Positions 9,146 to 45,730 of a stretch of 64,000 nt of DNA are shown here, in pieces. The stretch lies in the NCBI RefSeq assembly GCF_041477585.1, contig NZ_JBGNYA010000001.1:2976001-3040000 (forward strand), given 5' to 3'. The notes under the pieces are model-generated. The model was given only the letters and a program-made list of their open reading frames with translations, searched no databases and was not told the origin of the DNA. The first letter of the stretch is position 1. Every line of letters begins with the position of its first letter. The DNA comes from Halobellus sp. MBLA0158 (lineage in GTDB: Archaea; Halobacteriota; Halobacteria; Halobacteriales; Haloferacaceae). The position numbers and the translations under genes are program-made.

Positions 9146-9228
9146 TCGTAGTGATTACGCTCGTCTCGTACCGACGAAGGCCACCCCAGTGACGGCGTTC
9201 GGCGGAACAGTGAGAGTAGTCCCTATCA
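9146..9228 (-). repeat. 83-nt stop-codon palindrome, copy A1
   Basis: Read on the minus strand it starts TGATAGGGACTACTCTCAC, contains the core CCGCCGAACGCCGTCA near its centre and ends GTAATCACTACGA. The first TGA is the stop codon of the gene at 9226-9471. The two arms form an imperfect inverted repeat. The far flank is CGA rather than TGA, as expected for a decayed direct repeat. Length and central sequence match the copies at 24837-24919 and 43536-43618. Confidence 0.75.
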
Positions 9229-9471
9229 GTTCGGCCCGGTGATGTCCATCGGGCGGATCCAGCCATACCAGATAGCGAAGATCATCCCGCCGTACCCGAG
9301 GACGAACACGATCGCGCCGAGGTCGTTGTAGCCGAGTTCGCCGAGGAAGCGGCGGACGAGCCCCGAGCCCGCGATCCCGACGACGAGCAGGGCGACGAGC
9401 AGCACCTTGTCCCGCGTGAGTTCGAAGAGCTGTCCGTCCGCCGGCTCGGCCTCGGCGTCCTCGTCGGTCAT
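9226..9471 (-). CDS. small two-helix membrane protein
   Basis: An 81-residue protein with an acidic, soluble N-terminus (TDEDAEAEPADGQ) and two membrane helices, KVLLVALLVVGIAGSGLV (about 22-39) and LGAIVFVLGYGGMIFAIWYGWI (about 51-72). I do not recognise the family; similar short proteins are common in haloarchaea. Its TGA stop is the first three bases of a palindromic element. It is preceded on the same strand by the sensor kinase at 9524, only 52 nt away, so the two may share a transcript. Confidence 0.6.
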   Translation of the reverse strand: MTDEDAEAEPADGQLFELTRDKVLLVALLVVGIAGSGLVRRFLGELGYNDLGAIVFVLGYGGMIFAIWYGWIRPMDITGPN

Positions 9472-16701: not shown

Positions 16702-16784
16702 TCATACTGTCGGACACAACTGTTTCAAGATATTCGCCGCCCCGGGCGGCGAAATTCTTCACAGACTTGTGTCCGACAGTATCA
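16702..16784 (-). repeat. 83-nt stop-codon palindrome, copy B
   Basis: On the minus strand it begins TGATACTGTCGGACACAA and ends TTGTGTCCGACAGTATGA. A 15-bp perfect terminal inverted repeat (TACTGTCGGACACAA) is flanked by TGA on both sides. The centre forms a second perfect stem TTCGCCGCC/GGCGGCGAA with a 3-nt loop. The first TGA is the stop codon of the ASCH gene. The internal sequence differs from the A copies, but the length, ends and placement are the same. Confidence 0.85.
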
Positions 16785-17105
16785 GTCCCGCCGCTCGAAC
16801 CGATACGTGAGCACCTCGTCGCTGTCGTCCCACTCGAAGTCGCCGGGGTGGACTCGCTCCATTCGGCGCTTGTACGCCTCCAGGGACTCCGAGCCCTCCC
16901 GTCGAGCGTCGGCGTCGGTGAAGTCGCCGAGCGTCCGCCGCTCGACGCTCGTCACCTCGAACGTCGCGCCGCCGAGCTCGAAGGTGTCGCCCTCGCCGGC
17001 GTAGCGGTTGCTCGCGCCGCGCGTCAACTGCGTCACGTCGCCGTCGAGCACGGACTGCTGGACGCGGTCGTTCGGCAGGAGGTCGTCGGGGTCGATTTCG
17101 GCCAT
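16782..17105 (-). CDS. ASCH-domain protein
   Basis: A 107-residue single-domain protein. The run RGASNRYAGEGDTFELGGAT followed by FEVTSVERRTLGDFTDADARREG is typical of ASCH domains, a PUA-like beta-barrel that binds RNA or modified nucleosides; some members are ribonucleases or amidohydrolases for N4-acetylcytidine. The conserved Glu-Gly after DADARRE and the SLEAYK helix are present. The role here is unknown. The stop codon is the first triplet of palindrome B. Confidence 0.8.
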   Translation of the reverse strand: MAEIDPDDLLPNDRVQQSVLDGDVTQLTRGASNRYAGEGDTFELGGATFEVTSVERRTLGDFTDADARREGSESLEAYKRRMERVHPGDFEWDDSDEVLTYRFERRD

Positions 17106-19145: not shown

Positions 19146-19353
19146 GTGTCTGCCCGCTCACTGGGGTCTGACCGAGGCTGTTTCGAGCTACGACAGGAGT
19201 TCCTCGGCTGCATCGATCGTCAAAAATGCCGGCCTCGGCACTCATAGGGCTCGTCGTCGTCGAGCGCCACCCCGACTCGGAGCGGTGCCGTCGTCATCGG
19301 CCGTCCGAAGCGAGGGCGGCGACTCAAAAGAGCGTTGCGAGCGTGGCGGAGCG
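19146..19353. other. intergenic region with a possible gene fragment
   Basis: No intact gene was found. On the minus strand near 19188-19240 a short open stretch ends ...PAFLTIDAAEELLS before a TAG. It looks like the C-terminus of a lost protein, perhaps debris from turnover next to the toxin-antitoxin module. The call is weak. Confidence 0.2.
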
Positions 19354-24836: not shown

Positions 24837-24919
24837 TCATAGCGAGTACTCTCACTGTGTACCGTCGAATGACCCCGATTACGGCGTTCGGCGGTAAGAG
24901 ACGAGCGTAATCAGTATCA
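24837..24919 (-). repeat. 83-nt stop-codon palindrome, copy A2
   Basis: On the minus strand it begins TGATACTGATTACGCTCG, contains CTTACCGCCGAACGCCGTAA, and ends GAGTACTCGCTATGA. Both ends carry TGA. The first TGA terminates the Nif3-like gene. The arms are complementary with mismatches. It aligns along its full length with copies A1 and A3. Confidence 0.82.
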
Positions 24920-25708
24920 GAGCCCCGTCGGATGCGAGAGGACCGTCGTCTCGACGCCCCACTCTCCGACTAGGTCCGCCAGACGCGCGACGCCGAAGGT
25001 CTCGGTGGCGTAGTGGCCGCCGAGGAAGACGTGGATCCCGGCCTCGCGGGCTTCGTGGTAGACCTGCTGTTTGCCCTCACCCGTCACGAGCGCATCGACG
25101 CCGGCGTCGGCGGCCTCGCCGAGCCAGTCGACGCCCGAGCCCGTGACGATGGCGATATCGCGGATCTCCTCGGGGCCGAAGTCGAGCACCTGGGGCTCCC
25201 GACCGTCGGTGTCGAGGTCGGCGAGTCGCGAGCGGACGTCGTCGACGGCGTAGGGTTCGGGGGTGCGGCCGCGACGCCCGATCGTCACGGGCCCCAGTTC
25301 GCCGAAGGCCGCCTGCCGTTCGAGGCCGAGGTGGTCGGCGAGCCCCGCGGCGTTGCCGAGCGAGGCGTGGCCGTCGAGCGGGAGGTGCGAGACGTACAGC
25401 GCGATATCGTGTTCGACGAGCGCGGAGACGGTCTCGTACGCCCGGCCGGTCACGCGGTCGAGTCCGCCCCAGACGAGGCCGTGGTGGGTCACGAGCAGGT
25501 CCGCGCCCGCCTCGGCGGCGGCCCCGATGGTGGCCGCGGCGGCGTCGACCGCGAAGGCGGCGCGCTCGATCTCGGGCGAATCCTCCCGAGGAGTGTGCTG
25601 GAGGTCGCCGGGGCCGACCTGGAGGCCGTTGGCGCTGGCGTCGACGTCGGCGTACGCGTCGGTGTCGAGTCGGTCGTCGAGTCGCGCGGTGAGCGTCGCG
25701 AGGTCCAT
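24917..25708 (-). CDS. Nif3-like dinuclear metal centre protein
   Basis: A 263-residue cytosolic protein of the Nif3/YbgI family, toroidal hexamers with a two-metal site. Likely metal ligands are the paired histidines of LLVTHHGLVWGG (near residue 75), His/Asp near YVSHLPLDGH, and the C-terminal LGGHYATETFG (His and Glu). Function is unsettled; some members are called GTP cyclohydrolase I type 2. The ATG at 25708 opens MDLATLTARLDDRL, as in relatives. It is downstream of the agmatinase gene, separated by a palindrome that may terminate transcription. Confidence 0.88.
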   Translation of the reverse strand: MDLATLTARLDDRLDTDAYADVDASANGLQVGPGDLQHTPREDSPEIERAAFAVDAAAATIGAAAEAGADLLVTHHGLVWGGLDRVTGRAYETVSALVEHDIALYVSHLPLDGHASLGNAAGLADHLGLERQAAFGELGPVTIGRRGRTPEPYAVDDVRSRLADLDTDGREPQVLDFGPEEIRDIAIVTGSGVDWLGEAADAGVDALVTGEGKQQVYHEAREAGIHVFLGGHYATETFGVARLADLVGEWGVETTVLSHPTGL

Positions 25709-25750
25709 ACCCCGTGTTCTCGGCCTCCGGGGAATAGGTCTTGTCTCCGC

Positions 25751-25762
25751 GGTCCGCGGACC
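25751..25762 (-). terminator. perfect 12-nt palindrome after agmatinase
   Basis: GGTCCGCGGACC lies two bases beyond the agmatinase stop codon, in the 56-nt gap before the Nif3-like gene. It could form a small hairpin that ends or pauses transcription. No T-run follows, so the call is tentative. Confidence 0.3.
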
Positions 25763-25764
25763 AA

Positions 25765-26634
25765 TCAGTCGTCCGCCGTGTCGGCGTGCGCGTAGACGAA
25801 CTCCCGGCAGAGCTTCGCCGCCAGCGACGCGGCCTGGCCGTCGTCGCGGTCGTTGACCTCCACGACGTCGAAGCCCGCGGCGCGGGGCGCGACGGTCCGC
25901 ACGACGTCGCGGAGCGCTCGGGGGTCGAGGCCGAACGGCTCGGGCGTGCCGGTGCCCGGTGCGAACCCCGGATCGGCGGCGTCGACGTCGACGCTCAGGT
26001 ACGCGGTGCGGTCGCCGACAGCGGCGTCGAGATCGAAGTCCGCGACATCCTCGGGCGCGACGACGGTCACGTCGTCGGCCTCGGCGCGCTCCCACTCCTC
26101 GGGGCTGCCGGTCCGGGCGCCGAGGACGATCGCCTCGTCGACGTCCGGATCGGCGCTCCCGCCGTCGCTGTCGACGTCTGGGTCCGAGTCCGCGACGCCG
26201 TCGAGGATCCGCCGCGTCACCGTCGCGTGGCTGTAAGGGTTGCCGTCGTAGTCGGCCCGCAGGTCGAGGTGGGCGTCCAGACAGACGAACACGTCGGGAT
26301 CGACGGCCGCGACGCCCGCCGAGGAGACGGTGTGTTCGCCGCCCAGGAGGAGCGGCACGGCGTCAGAATCGACGACGTCGCGGAGTTCGCCCGCGAGCCA
26401 CGACAGGTACTCGGACGCGTCGTCCCACGCGCGGACGTCGCCGTGGTCGTGGACGGAACAGTCCGAAAAGCGCAGGTCGGTCCGCCGGTCGTAGTCGTCG
26501 AACGGCCGGGCGAACCGCCGGATTCTCTCGGGGCCGAAGCGGGCCCCGGGTCGGAACGAGGTCGAGATATCCAGCGGGGCGCCCACGACGACGTACGCGG
26601 CGTCGGTACGCGATGCGGTCGCCCCGGGGAACAT
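25765..26634 (-). CDS. speB: agmatinase-family ureohydrolase
   Basis: A 289-residue manganese ureohydrolase converting agmatine to putrescine and urea or, in haloarchaea, acting on an agmatine-modified aIF5A. Metal motifs are all present: GGEHTVSS (His), CLDAHLDLRADYDG (Asp-His-Asp) and LSVDVDAADPGFAPG (Asp-Asp). A 25-residue Asp-rich insert (DSDPDVDSDGGSADPDVDE) interrupts the middle. The gene starts 6 nt after the aIF5A stop on the same strand. This tight pairing, with deoxyhypusine synthase nearby, supports a role in hypusine formation rather than general polyamine catabolism. Confidence 0.9.
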   Translation of the reverse strand: MFPGATASRTDAAYVVVGAPLDISTSFRPGARFGPERIRRFARPFDDYDRRTDLRFSDCSVHDHGDVRAWDDASEYLSWLAGELRDVVDSDAVPLLLGGEHTVSSAGVAAVDPDVFVCLDAHLDLRADYDGNPYSHATVTRRILDGVADSDPDVDSDGGSADPDVDEAIVLGARTGSPEEWERAEADDVTVVAPEDVADFDLDAAVGDRTAYLSVDVDAADPGFAPGTGTPEPFGLDPRALRDVVRTVAPRAAGFDVVEVNDRDDGQAASLAAKLCREFVYAHADTADD

Positions 26635-41271: not shown

Positions 41272-43377
41272 TTACTGCGAGGTCGGGACCGGGCCGGCCC
41301 CGAAGGACGCCTCGGCGCCCGAGTCGGACCGGCAGTTCTCGGGCGCGCCGATCGTCACGGCGCACTGTTTCAGGTTCGGCTCCGCCGACTCGGGATCGAC
41401 CGCAGACAGGGTGAGCCGATTGGCGGCCGCGTTGTGGATTGGGAGCCAGACGACGCCGGGCGGGATGCCCTCGTTCGGGACGACCTCGACGACGACCTCG
41501 GCGCGCCGGGATTCGAGGACGGTCCGCGCCCGGTCGAACGCCGGGAGCCACTGGGCGATCGTCTCGGGGTGCATCCGCGCGGTCGGCACCGCGCTGTCCT
41601 CCCCGTTGCGGGTCCGGACCCCCGTGTTGTAGACGTCGGAGCTCCGCCCGGTCGTGAGCGTGAGCGGGTACTCGTCGTCGATGGGTTCCGGGAGAGTGCT
41701 GTGGGTGGCCGTCGAGAACTGCGCCCGGCCCGATTCCGTGTAGAACGACCAGTCCTCGCCGTCGTAGTACCGGTACTCCCCCTGGCCCTCGGTGTCGGGC
41801 GCGGGCCAGCGGACCGCGTACTCCTCGTCCAGCCGGTCGTAGGTGATCCCCGAGAGGTCCGCGGGGGTCCCCTCGGTCAGGTCGCGGATCTCGTCGAAGA
41901 TCGTCTCGGGGGCAAGCGGCGGCTCCGCGAACAGGTCCGGGTGGATGCGGTTGCCGATCGCCGCGATGACGTCCAGATCGGTCCGTGCCGACCCTGGCGG
42001 GTCCGAGACGGCGGTGACCCGGGAGATGCGGCGCTCCATATTCGTGGTCGTCCCCTCGGACTCGCCCCACGTCGCCGCCGGCAGCACCACGTCGGCGCAC
42101 TCGACCGTGTCCGAGCGGAAGGCGTCCTGGACGACGACGAAGGCGTCGTCGAGGGCGGTCCTGACGTGGCCCGCGTCGGGCATCCCGGCCGCGGGGTTCG
42201 TGGCGACGGCCCAGCAGACGTCGATGTTGTCGCGGGCGAGTTCGTCCACGATCCGGACGAAGCCCGGCCCCGCCGACGTCGGGAGTCGGCTCAGCGGGAC
42301 GTCCCACGTCTCGGCGACGAGCTCGCGGCTCGCCGGGTCCTCGAACTCGCGGTGGCCCGGCCAGGTCCCCTTCGACGCACAGACGCGGTTGCCCATCGAA
42401 TTGGCCTGGCCCGTGAGCGAGAAGGGGCCGCTGCCAGGACCCATATTCCCGGTCGCCAGACAGAGATCGATCAGCGCCCGCGCCGTGGCCGTCCCCTGGA
42501 TGTTCTGATTGACGCCCATCCCCCAGTAGACGAGCGTCGGGTCCGCGAACGCGTCCGCGATCGCCGCGACGTCGTCGACGTCGACGCCGGCGACCTCGGC
42601 CGCGGCCTCGACCTCGGGGAGCGCCTCGACGGTCTCCTCGAAGCCCTCTGTGTGATCGAGGAACGACTCGTCGACTCCGTCCTCGTCGACCAGATACGCC
42701 AGGACCGCCCGCGCCAGGGCGAGGTCGGTCCCGGGCTCGGGTCGGACGTGCGTGTCGGCCTCGCTGGCCGTCCGCGTCGTGACGGGGTCGACGACGACGA
42801 GCCGCCCGTCCTCGTCGGCGCTGTTGGCGATCCAGCGGTGCAACACGGGGTGGGCCACCGACGGGTTCGCCCCCCAGACGACGTGGGAGGTCGCCCGCGG
42901 GATGTCGTCGTAGGTCGGCGGCGGGGCGTCGCTGCCGAACGCCTGGTAGTACGCCGTCACCGCCGACGCCATACACAGCGTCGTGTTCGCGTCGTAGTAC
43001 CGCGTCCCGAACGCCCCGCGGGCGACCTTCCCGAGCGCGTAGGCCGCCTCGTTCGTCTGCTGGCCGCTCCCCAGCACGGCGACGTTGTCCGGATCGTCCC
43101 GGAGCGCCTCGATGAGCCGCGTCGTGACGACGCCGAGGGCCGTGTCCCAGTCGGTCGGCTGGAGCTCGCCGCCGCGGCGGATCAGCGGCTCGGTCAGGCG
43201 CTCGCCGTCCGGATCGACCGTCTCACGGACGCCGCGCTGGCACTTGAGGCCCTCGTTCGTCGGATGGTCGGGGTTGCCACGGGCTTCCGCGACGCCGACG
43301 CCGTCGGTTCCGTTCCGCTGGAGGTAACCGCAGCCGACGGCACACCGCATACACGTCGTCGGATGCCAGTCACTCAT
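41272..43377 (-). CDS. nasA: assimilatory nitrate reductase (copy 1)
   Basis: A 701-residue bis-molybdopterin enzyme reducing nitrate to nitrite in the cytoplasm. An N-terminal [4Fe-4S] site (Cys9, 12, 16, 46 in CMRCAVGC ... GLKCQRG) is followed by the DMSO-reductase fold. Cys135 in NTTLCMASA is the likely molybdenum ligand. Further family motifs are YWGMGVNQNIQGT, GQANSMGNRVC and the C-terminal LTLTTGRSSDVYNTG oxyanion/cofactor region. No C-terminal second cluster or membrane subunit is present, fitting ferredoxin-dependent NasA. It is closely related to the next gene, 43616-45730. Confidence 0.93.
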   Translation of the reverse strand: MSDWHPTTCMRCAVGCGYLQRNGTDGVGVAEARGNPDHPTNEGLKCQRGVRETVDPDGERLTEPLIRRGGELQPTDWDTALGVVTTRLIEALRDDPDNVAVLGSGQQTNEAAYALGKVARGAFGTRYYDANTTLCMASAVTAYYQAFGSDAPPPTYDDIPRATSHVVWGANPSVAHPVLHRWIANSADEDGRLVVVDPVTTRTASEADTHVRPEPGTDLALARAVLAYLVDEDGVDESFLDHTEGFEETVEALPEVEAAAEVAGVDVDDVAAIADAFADPTLVYWGMGVNQNIQGTATARALIDLCLATGNMGPGSGPFSLTGQANSMGNRVCASKGTWPGHREFEDPASRELVAETWDVPLSRLPTSAGPGFVRIVDELARDNIDVCWAVATNPAAGMPDAGHVRTALDDAFVVVQDAFRSDTVECADVVLPAATWGESEGTTTNMERRISRVTAVSDPPGSARTDLDVIAAIGNRIHPDLFAEPPLAPETIFDEIRDLTEGTPADLSGITYDRLDEEYAVRWPAPDTEGQGEYRYYDGEDWSFYTESGRAQFSTATHSTLPEPIDDEYPLTLTTGRSSDVYNTGVRTRNGEDSAVPTARMHPETIAQWLPAFDRARTVLESRRAEVVVEVVPNEGIPPGVVWLPIHNAAANRLTLSAVDPESAEPNLKQCAVTIGAPENCRSDSGAEASFGAGPVPTSQ

Positions 43378-43535: not shown

Positions 43536-43618
43536 TCATAGTGAGTACTCTCGTCTCTTACCGCCGAACGCCGTCATCGGGGGTCGTTCGGCGTGAGAGA
43601 CGAGCGTAGTCACTATCA
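43536..43618 (-). repeat. 83-nt stop-codon palindrome, copy A3
   Basis: The best-preserved A copy. On the minus strand it reads TGA, then TAGTGACTACGCTCGTCTCT..., a short central loop, and ...AGAGACGAGAGTACTCACTA, then TGA. The arms pair over about 31 nt with three mismatches and one bulge. The first TGA is the stop codon of the second nasA gene. Confidence 0.88.
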
Positions 43619-45730
43619 GTCGCTATCGATGCGCGTGGGGTCGTCCGGGACGGAGATCCCCTGATCGATGAGCGGCGCCGAGCGGCCGGGCACCTGCATC
43701 GTCACGGCGCACTGCTTGAAGTTCGGCTCGTCCGACTGCGGGTCGACCGCCGGGAGCGTGAGCGCGTTCACCGCCGGGTGGTGGATCGGGAGCCACACCA
43801 TCCCGGGCGGGATCCCGTCGTCGGGCTGGACCGTCACCGTGACCGAGGCCCGCCGCGAGGTCAGGACGGTCCGGCCGCGGTCCAAGGCCTCCATATTGTC
43901 CAGCGTCGTCTCCGGGTGGATGCGCGCGACCGGCGACTCGTCGGTCTTCCCGTTCCGCGTCCGGACGCCGGTGTTGTACGCGTCGGGGGTCCGGCCGGTC
44001 GTGAGCGTGAGCGGATACGACTCGTCGGTCGGTTCGGCGAGCCCGTCGTGGGTGCCCGTCGAGAACCGTGCGCGGCCCGAGGAGGTCGGGAACGCCCAGC
44101 CGTCGTCGCTGTGGTAGCGATAGCCGCCCTGGACGTCGGGCTCGGGCGCGGGCCAGCGGACCGCCAGCTCCGCGTCCAGGCGGTCGTAAGAGATGCCCGA
44201 GAGGTCCGCGGGCGTTCCCGCGGTCAGGTCGCGGAGCTCGTCGAAGATCGACTCGGGATCGAGCGGCGGCTGTGCGAAGAGGTCCGGCGCGAGCCGATTG
44301 CCGATCGTCGCGATGATGTCGAGGTCCTGCTTGATCTTCGGCGGCACCTCGGTCGCCGCGCGGACCCGCGAGACCGTCCGCTCCATGTTCGTGGTCGTCC
44401 CCGCGGACTCGCCCCACGTCGCGGCCGGCAGCACCACGTCCGCGACCTCGACGGTCTCGGTGTGGAAGGCGTCCTGAGCCACCAGGAACGTCTCCGAGAG
44501 CGCCTCGCGGACGTCGTCGGCGTCGGGCATCCCCGCGACCGGGTTGGTGGCGACCGTCCAGCAGGCCTCGACCGGCCCGTCGGCGACGGCGTCGACGATC
44601 CCCACGGGACCGGGACCCGGATCGTCCGGGAGGCGGTCGACCGGCACGTCCCAGGTCTCGGCGACGGTCTCGCGGTGTTCGGGGTCGGTAAAGGGACGGT
44701 GGCCCGGCCAGGTCCCCTTCGACGAGCAGACCCGCGTGCCCATCGAGTTGGCTTGCCCCGTGAGCGAGAACGGGCCGCTTCCGGGACCCATATTCCCGGT
44801 TGCCAAGCAGAGGTCGATCAGCGCCCGCGCCGTCTTCGTCCCCTGGACGCTCTGATTGACGCCCATCCCCCAATAGACGAGGGTCGGGTCCGCGAGCGCC
44901 GCAGCGACGCGTTCCACGTCGTCGACGTCGACGCCGGCGACCTCGGCCGCGGCCGCGACCTCGGGGAGCGAATCGAGGAGCGCGTCGAAGCCCGTCGTCG
45001 ACGCCTCGACGAACTCGCGGTCGACGAGGCCCGACTCGACCGCGCTCGCCAGGACCGCCCGGGCGAACGCGAGGTCGGTGCCGGGGTCGACCTGGACGTG
45101 GTGGTCCGCGTCGTCGACGGTCTCGCTCTCGACGGGGTCGACCACGAGCAGTTCGCTGTCGGTGTCGCCCGCGCTGTCGACGATCCAGCGGTACATCACG
45201 GGGTGGGCCGCCGCGGGGTTCGCCCCCCAGACGAGGTGCGTCTCGGCCTCGGGGATGTCGTCGTAGGTCGGCGGCGGGGCGTCGCTGCCGAACGCCTGGT
45301 AGTACGCCGTCACCGCAGACGCCATACACAGCGTCGTGTTCGCGTCGTAATACCGCGTTCCGATGCCGCCGCGGGCGACCTTCCCGAGCGCGTAGGCCGC
45401 CTCGTTCGTCTGCTGGCCGCTCCCCAGCACCGCGATGCCGTTCCTGTCGCGGTCGAGAACCTCGGCGAACCGCGAGGTCACGACATCGAGCGCCTCCTCC
45501 CAGGTCGTCGCGACGAGCTTGCCGTCCTCGCGGACCAGCGGCCGGGTGAGCCACTCGCCGTCGGGATCGGCCGTCTCCCGGACGCCCCGCTGACAGGCCA
45601 GCCCGCGGTTCACCGGGTGGTTGGCGTCGCCCCGGACCGTATCGAGCCCGTAGCCGTTGTCCACGCTCTGCTGGAGGTGACCGCACCCGACCGCACACCG
45701 CATACACGTCGTCGGCGTCCACTCGGTCAT
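43616..45730 (-). CDS. assimilatory nitrate reductase (copy 2)
   Basis: A 704-residue paralogue of the gene at 41272, with the same cofactor residues (Cys9, 12, 16, 46 and Cys135) and matching motifs throughout. A 178-nt stretch (45254-45431) is about 96 percent identical in DNA to 42901-43078, far above the genes overall, suggesting recent gene conversion. It may differ from copy 1 in kinetics or regulation. It is divergent from nirA across a 497-nt AT-rich gap. Its stop codon is the first triplet of palindrome A3. Confidence 0.92.
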   Translation of the reverse strand: MTEWTPTTCMRCAVGCGHLQQSVDNGYGLDTVRGDANHPVNRGLACQRGVRETADPDGEWLTRPLVREDGKLVATTWEEALDVVTSRFAEVLDRDRNGIAVLGSGQQTNEAAYALGKVARGGIGTRYYDANTTLCMASAVTAYYQAFGSDAPPPTYDDIPEAETHLVWGANPAAAHPVMYRWIVDSAGDTDSELLVVDPVESETVDDADHHVQVDPGTDLAFARAVLASAVESGLVDREFVEASTTGFDALLDSLPEVAAAAEVAGVDVDDVERVAAALADPTLVYWGMGVNQSVQGTKTARALIDLCLATGNMGPGSGPFSLTGQANSMGTRVCSSKGTWPGHRPFTDPEHRETVAETWDVPVDRLPDDPGPGPVGIVDAVADGPVEACWTVATNPVAGMPDADDVREALSETFLVAQDAFHTETVEVADVVLPAATWGESAGTTTNMERTVSRVRAATEVPPKIKQDLDIIATIGNRLAPDLFAQPPLDPESIFDELRDLTAGTPADLSGISYDRLDAELAVRWPAPEPDVQGGYRYHSDDGWAFPTSSGRARFSTGTHDGLAEPTDESYPLTLTTGRTPDAYNTGVRTRNGKTDESPVARIHPETTLDNMEALDRGRTVLTSRRASVTVTVQPDDGIPPGMVWLPIHHPAVNALTLPAVDPQSDEPNFKQCAVTMQVPGRSAPLIDQGISVPDDPTRIDSD

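Follow-up and report, generated by a model that had tools for sequence, protein, structure and literature searches.

Why should an 83-nt palindrome begin with the stop codon of a gene and end with a second copy of the same triplet? The window analyzed here, i.e., the whole 64,000-nt stretch from 2976001 to 3040000 of contig 1 in the 3.29-Mb genome of Halobellus sp. MBLA0158 (69% GC in the window), carries such an element at the end of nasA, the gene for assimilatory nitrate reductase. An earlier note on this DNA had read it as a tiny, non-autonomous mobile element, a hairpin that duplicates the TGA into which it inserts, so that the host gene keeps its stop. The arrangement itself stands: on the minus strand, 43536–43618 reads TGA TAGTGACTACGCTCGTCTCTCACGCCGAACG...CGGTAAGAGACGAGAGTACTCACTA TGA around a 77-nt core, and its RNA fold of ~30 pairs reaches -46.6 kcal/mol against -22.1 +/- 2.9 for shuffles (z = -8.5), a hairpin strength well beyond chance. 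The host gene was also correctly named, its 704-aa ORF scoring 1233 bits with the NasA_Halo model NF041323 (cut-off 1000). The coordinates of this and the related features are collected in Table 1.

Table 1. Hairpin elements, their host genes and 12-nt remnants. Positions are those of the window, except in the last row (own genome, G000).
Feature	Position	Strand	Remarks
HbM1 copy D, including both TGA duplicates	43536..43618	-	the 83-nt palindrome itself
TGA, nasA stop codon and gene-side target duplicate of copy D	43616..43618	-	
Palindromic core (77 nt) of HbM1 copy D	43539..43615	-	
Distal target duplicate of copy D, TGA	43536..43538	-	
nasA, assimilatory nitrate reductase, host gene of copy D	43616..45730	-	
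HbM1 copy A, decayed	9146..9228	-	TCG as distal triplet; TCA on the gene side still serves as stop
Host gene of copy A	9226..9471	-	81 aa; no family match
HbM2 copy B	16702..16784	-	TACTGTCGGACACAA ends; the genome has two further near-identical copies
Host gene of copy B	16782..17105	-	107 aa; no family match
HbM1 copy C, decayed hairpin	24837..24919	-	TCA/TCA flanks
Host ORF of copy C	24917..26095	-	Nif3-like domain at end
12-nt HbM1 remnants (L201, L202, L206, L207, L209)	G000:C1 612192, 2356582, 1310334, 2431158, 325723		

Three further loci in the window had been described as alike in length and arrangement. Their coordinates, their 83-nt length and the minus-strand stop at the right-hand triplet are borne out, with the exception that the distal triplet at 9146 is TCG, not TCA. 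What did not hold is the single family of four: the elements at 9146, 24837 and 43536 belong together (HbM1), whereas the one at 16702 is unrelated in sequence and represents a second family (HbM2). Nor is total length constant, since HbM1 cores are mostly 80 nt genome-wide and range from 72 to 97 nt; a fixed length is thereby excluded, and the 83 nt common to the window's four hairpins is a coincidence. Fold z-scores of 0.19 (9146) and -1.5 (24837) show that both of these hairpins have decayed. In a relative (G007), the host gene of copy A has the same stop and the element is absent.

With a covariance model built from the own-genome copies, we located 46 HbM1 loci in this genome, all on the chromosome-size contig, and the search of relatives that the earlier note had called for found the family in 8 of 16 other Halobellus genomes (H. 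limi 115 matches, H. inordinatus 54, H. clavatus 33, G008 26, G004 17, G005 10, G012 7 and G002 1; palindromic copies are often counted on both strands). The same model found none in the remaining 8, and viral contigs contained no HbM1 pattern. More than 20 copies in H. inordinatus are near-identical, which points to a recent burst. HbM1 cores end in TA(G/C/A)TGATTACTCTC, mostly TA(G/C)TGATTACTCTC, and these terminal repeats (TASTGATTACTCTC) are inverted at either side. Because the arms differ in a conserved inner stretch (GTCTCTT vs. ACTGTTT), the element has a direction, and both directions relative to the host gene are seen. Copy D is without this asymmetry—both of its arms are of the GTCTC type—and gives the impression that one arm was replaced by a copy of its partner.

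HbM2 is represented in the own genome by three loci that are 99–100% identical, with flanks TCA/TCA, TTA/TTA and TCA/TCA on the stops TGA, TAA and TGA (3/3) and with TACTGYCGG as terminal inverted repeat at either side. Among 293 haloarchaeal genomes, 59 (23 genera) contain its end pattern TSATACTGYCGGMYRYA, while a reversed control pattern gave 0 matches; relatives reside on plasmids of Haloarcula, Halomicrobium and Haloplanus, and the first triplet of an HbM2 copy in Haloarcula sp. CBA1115 coincides exactly with the annotated end of a CPBP-protease CDS. One Halobellus genome (G005) holds ~50 HbM2 copies at fixed spacing, of which the sampled ones are 98.7% identical with matching flanks, as in a recent burst. 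Each family is essentially one hairpin of ~78–80 bp, although some HbM2 relatives reach 102–109 bp; these longer elements, which share the ends and the TSA flanks, were seen in other haloarchaeal families (G042:C16 and C30, loci L297 and L301; G126, loci L348–L351). Matches to the HbM2 end pattern in viral contigs are unpaired and look like chance.

The flanks bear most directly on how these elements arrived. Identical triplets flank 77 of 111 HbM1 copies from five Halobellus species (TGA/TGA in 43, TCA/TCA in 34), and in most of the others one triplet, usually the gene-distal one, has decayed; a single exceptional copy has GCC/GCC flanks. Among sampled HbM2 copies 54 of 58 have matching flanks, under a search pattern that already required TNA on one side. 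The duplicate is 3 bp long and is TSA with few exceptions, TTA/TTA and TAA/TAA among them, within the insertion context C-TSA-G. Orthologues in congeners have the same stop and no element. Empty sites were compared between species and spacer divergence blurs most of them, so that this check, also proposed in the earlier note, is answered at one near-clean locus, 278085, where G004 reads GCTATGAGCGACTTCGGGCTGACAGTCGGCACC against our own GCTTTGAGCG-GGAAGAGCGAACAGTCGGCACC (element and one duplicate omitted), with a single TGA. Together with the HbM2 burst, the duplicated flanks uphold the idea of a tiny mobile hairpin that preserves the stop, with the target given more exactly as TSA than as TGA. 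As the flanks are identical TGA or TCA triplets, the copies lie in either orientation and the bursts appear recent, both families can be taken as MITEs: they are short (cores of 72–97 nt), lack coding capacity and are multi-copy (in the own genome, 46 loci for HbM1 and 3 for HbM2), and MITE-like behavior is, at the level of sequence, well supported.

The mobilizing enzyme suggested before, an IS5-group transposase, is not borne out by our scans, and an IS with TACTG/TAGTG-type terminal repeats did not emerge. No autonomous partner with matching ends, IS5-type or other, was found in whole-genome pattern scans, at PF01609 loci, at loci with unpaired ends or in 1.76 Mb of further DNA. A pattern scan for an IS with the same 12–14 nt ends yielded MITE ends and remnants only. 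The PF01609 transposase loci of the own genome and of G014 have the inverted repeats GGCTCTATTGAATC and GAGCCTGTCATAG, neither TACTG nor TAGTG, and an IS1031-like element with such ends was not located at these loci. The scans lend no support to deriving HbM1 and HbM2 from a particular named IS.

How strong, then, is the association with stop codons? With genes called by a codon-periodicity model, 85–89 of 111 HbM1 copies (~80%) lie directly against the in-frame stop codon of an ORF with coding character. In the independent PGAP annotation of an H. limi plasmid, 5 of 9 copies start exactly at the stop of a CDS (the PLSDB gene table is incomplete), and the stop-codon fraction thus varies between samples. 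HbM2 copies lie on stops in 35 of 58 cases in the multi-genus sample (~60%) and in 7 of 12 in the G005 burst. Stops constitute 13–24% of non-coding TSA sites, or ~29% after CTSAG weighting, and over this 13–29% null the HbM1 excess in the own genome has P below 1e-14. We rejected this simple null as overstating the bias and used a 3-prime refuge null instead, i.e., the share of stops (61–64%) among TSA sites that lie away from start codons and no more than 80 nt past the end of a gene. CTSAG sites are few (in the window, 5 free stops and 4 element hosts vs. 8 intergenic), and these small counts, together with our codon-periodicity gene calls, underlie the nulls. The HbM2 fraction fits the 3-prime refuge null, and HbM1 exceeds it modestly (P about 1e-3 to 1e-5). 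Because stops make up such a large part of the TSA sites in the safe zone 3' of genes, the bias is largely explained: target choice plus selection account for all of it in HbM2 and for most of it in HbM1. Copies away from stops and of varying length had been named in advance as counting against the mobile-hairpin reading; lengths do vary, and ~20% of HbM1 and ~40% of HbM2 copies lie off stops, so that the objection applies by half. HbM1 copies that begin with TAGTGA create an in-frame TGA-TAG-TGA, three consecutive stops. At G010:C1:2872122 the gene-side triplet is CGA, and the ORF continues into the element, whose TACTGA end supplies a TGA as an inbuilt backup.

After insertion the hairpins appear to decay, since arm pairing in the own genome is not convincingly above that of shuffled arms (z = 1.8, within the range of shuffles). 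Five identical 12-nt remnants of HbM1 have the form TCA (once TCG), 12 nt, TCA, and 5/5 sit on gene stops (Table 1). They probably arose by deletion between the inner TCA and the duplicate, an event that would be recurrent and identical in outcome; for Haloquadratum, excerpts of PMC3119063 describe deletion between short direct repeats of at least 4 bp.

We consider it probable that HbM1 and HbM2 are two unrelated, very small haloarchaeal MITE families for which stop codons are a refuge through TSA targeting and selection. Specifically, a transposase supplied in trans would move them into TSA sites, and insertion at a TGA stop would give gene-TGA-hairpin-TGA with the protein unchanged, while selection would purge insertions within coding sequence or close to promoters. 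Where genomes are GC-rich and spacers short, as here, stop codons would account for most of the TSA sites that are left, and they would be the most frequent place where an insertion does no harm, since the duplication restores them. The hairpin would then decay, in some copies down to the 12-nt remnant, and the gene-side triplet would be retained because it is the stop codon. Alternatively, the mobilizing machinery could recognize gene ends (e.g., zones of translation or transcription termination, or an extended motif at stops), such that stops are targeted and not just tolerated. That ~80% of HbM1 copies are at stops, a higher share than even the 3-prime refuge null predicts, and that two unrelated families show the pattern would fit this, but the youngest sampled burst (HbM2 in G005) and the multi-genus HbM2 sample show the fractions expected if any TSA just 3' of a gene is safe, and the CTSAG preference is the same for non-stop insertions. 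We hold such recognition to be improbable, and it is similarly doubtful that haloarchaea possess a transposition system coupled to gene ends that would place hairpins precisely at stops with the host gene unharmed.

Less probable again is the alternative raised in the earlier note, a co-opted family of transcription terminators or mRNA 3-prime stabilizers kept because they function at gene ends. While very stable hairpins right after stop codons, arms that co-vary between subfamilies and the 59% termination by a hairpin in one Haloferax volcanii reporter (PMC7237163) speak in its favor, shuffled sequences fold as well, or almost as well, as the copies at 9146 and 24837, own-genome arm pairing does not rise above shuffled arms, tandem and convergent settings (49 to 37) are near background, the distribution among species is patchy, and the hairpins have no U-tract, whereas T stretches are the main haloarchaeal signal. 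Between 43300 and 43900, no terminator-like site or T-rich tract after the stem was found. Because old hairpins decay freely and the U-tract is missing, a general terminator role is unlikely, and this alternative is weakened. That the palindromes arose by chance, or that recombination and not transposition spread a static repeat, would suit a search in which no transposase was identified, but 46 homologous loci, near-identical bursts and copies in either orientation argue against it and the exact 3-bp flanking duplicates already contradict it, so that we give it almost no credence.

A 3-bp, TNA-type target duplication is characteristic of the IS1031 group of the IS5 family and of the eukaryotic PIF/Harbinger Tourist MITEs, and HbM1 and HbM2 share the TNA duplication with the IS1031 group. 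They resemble REP/RAYT systems as small extragenic palindromes near gene ends in high copy number, but REPs have a GTAG-type foot and no target duplication, unlike the 3-bp duplication here. The pneumococcal SPRITE, RUP and neisserial Correia elements are likewise small, mobile and palindromic and lie between genes; the target duplicated by RUP and Correia elements, in bacterial hosts, is TA, and we know of no preference of RUP, Correia or SPRITE elements for the stop triplet itself. SPRITEs are terminator-like (PMC10969869). As portrayed in excerpts of PMC3119063, the MITEs, SMR-A and SMR-B of Haloquadratum walsbyi are similar in being transposase-free and short (HqIRS41, 80 bp), with inverted terminal repeats and many copies; the SMRs, compared by description only, differ in that they lack target duplication and target other mobile elements, and those excerpts do not mention stop-codon placement for the MITEs. 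The literature searched, by end sequence and by insertion at stop codons, contained no earlier description of either family. HbM1 and HbM2 are new MITE families, ordinary in kind and notable for their landing sites and breadth. A 3-bp target rule can make stop codons safe landing sites, as the stop is rebuilt, the cost to the protein is nil and a strong hairpin is gained in the 3-prime UTR. Haloarcula hispanica, which is genetically manipulable, carries copies, such that target choice and 3-prime UTR effects are directly testable there. For haloarchaea, the two families also make it harder to annotate gene ends and to predict terminators.

Three minor observations concern the surrounding DNA and the end sequences. 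The promoter-like CCGACAGTATAA upstream of genes at G000:C1 2627647 and at two G005 loci (L399, L402) resembles an outward-facing HbM2 end (CCGACAGTA plus TNA), a likeness that is probably a coincidence with a TATA box. Among Rfam covariance models at the gathering threshold, the window's only match is an sR-tMet C/D box RNA (RF02163; minus strand, 19231–19302), with none at the hairpins. Next to nasA lies a similar large minus-strand ORF (41272–43377) with 72–86% DNA identity to it in blocks, which may be its tandem paralogue.
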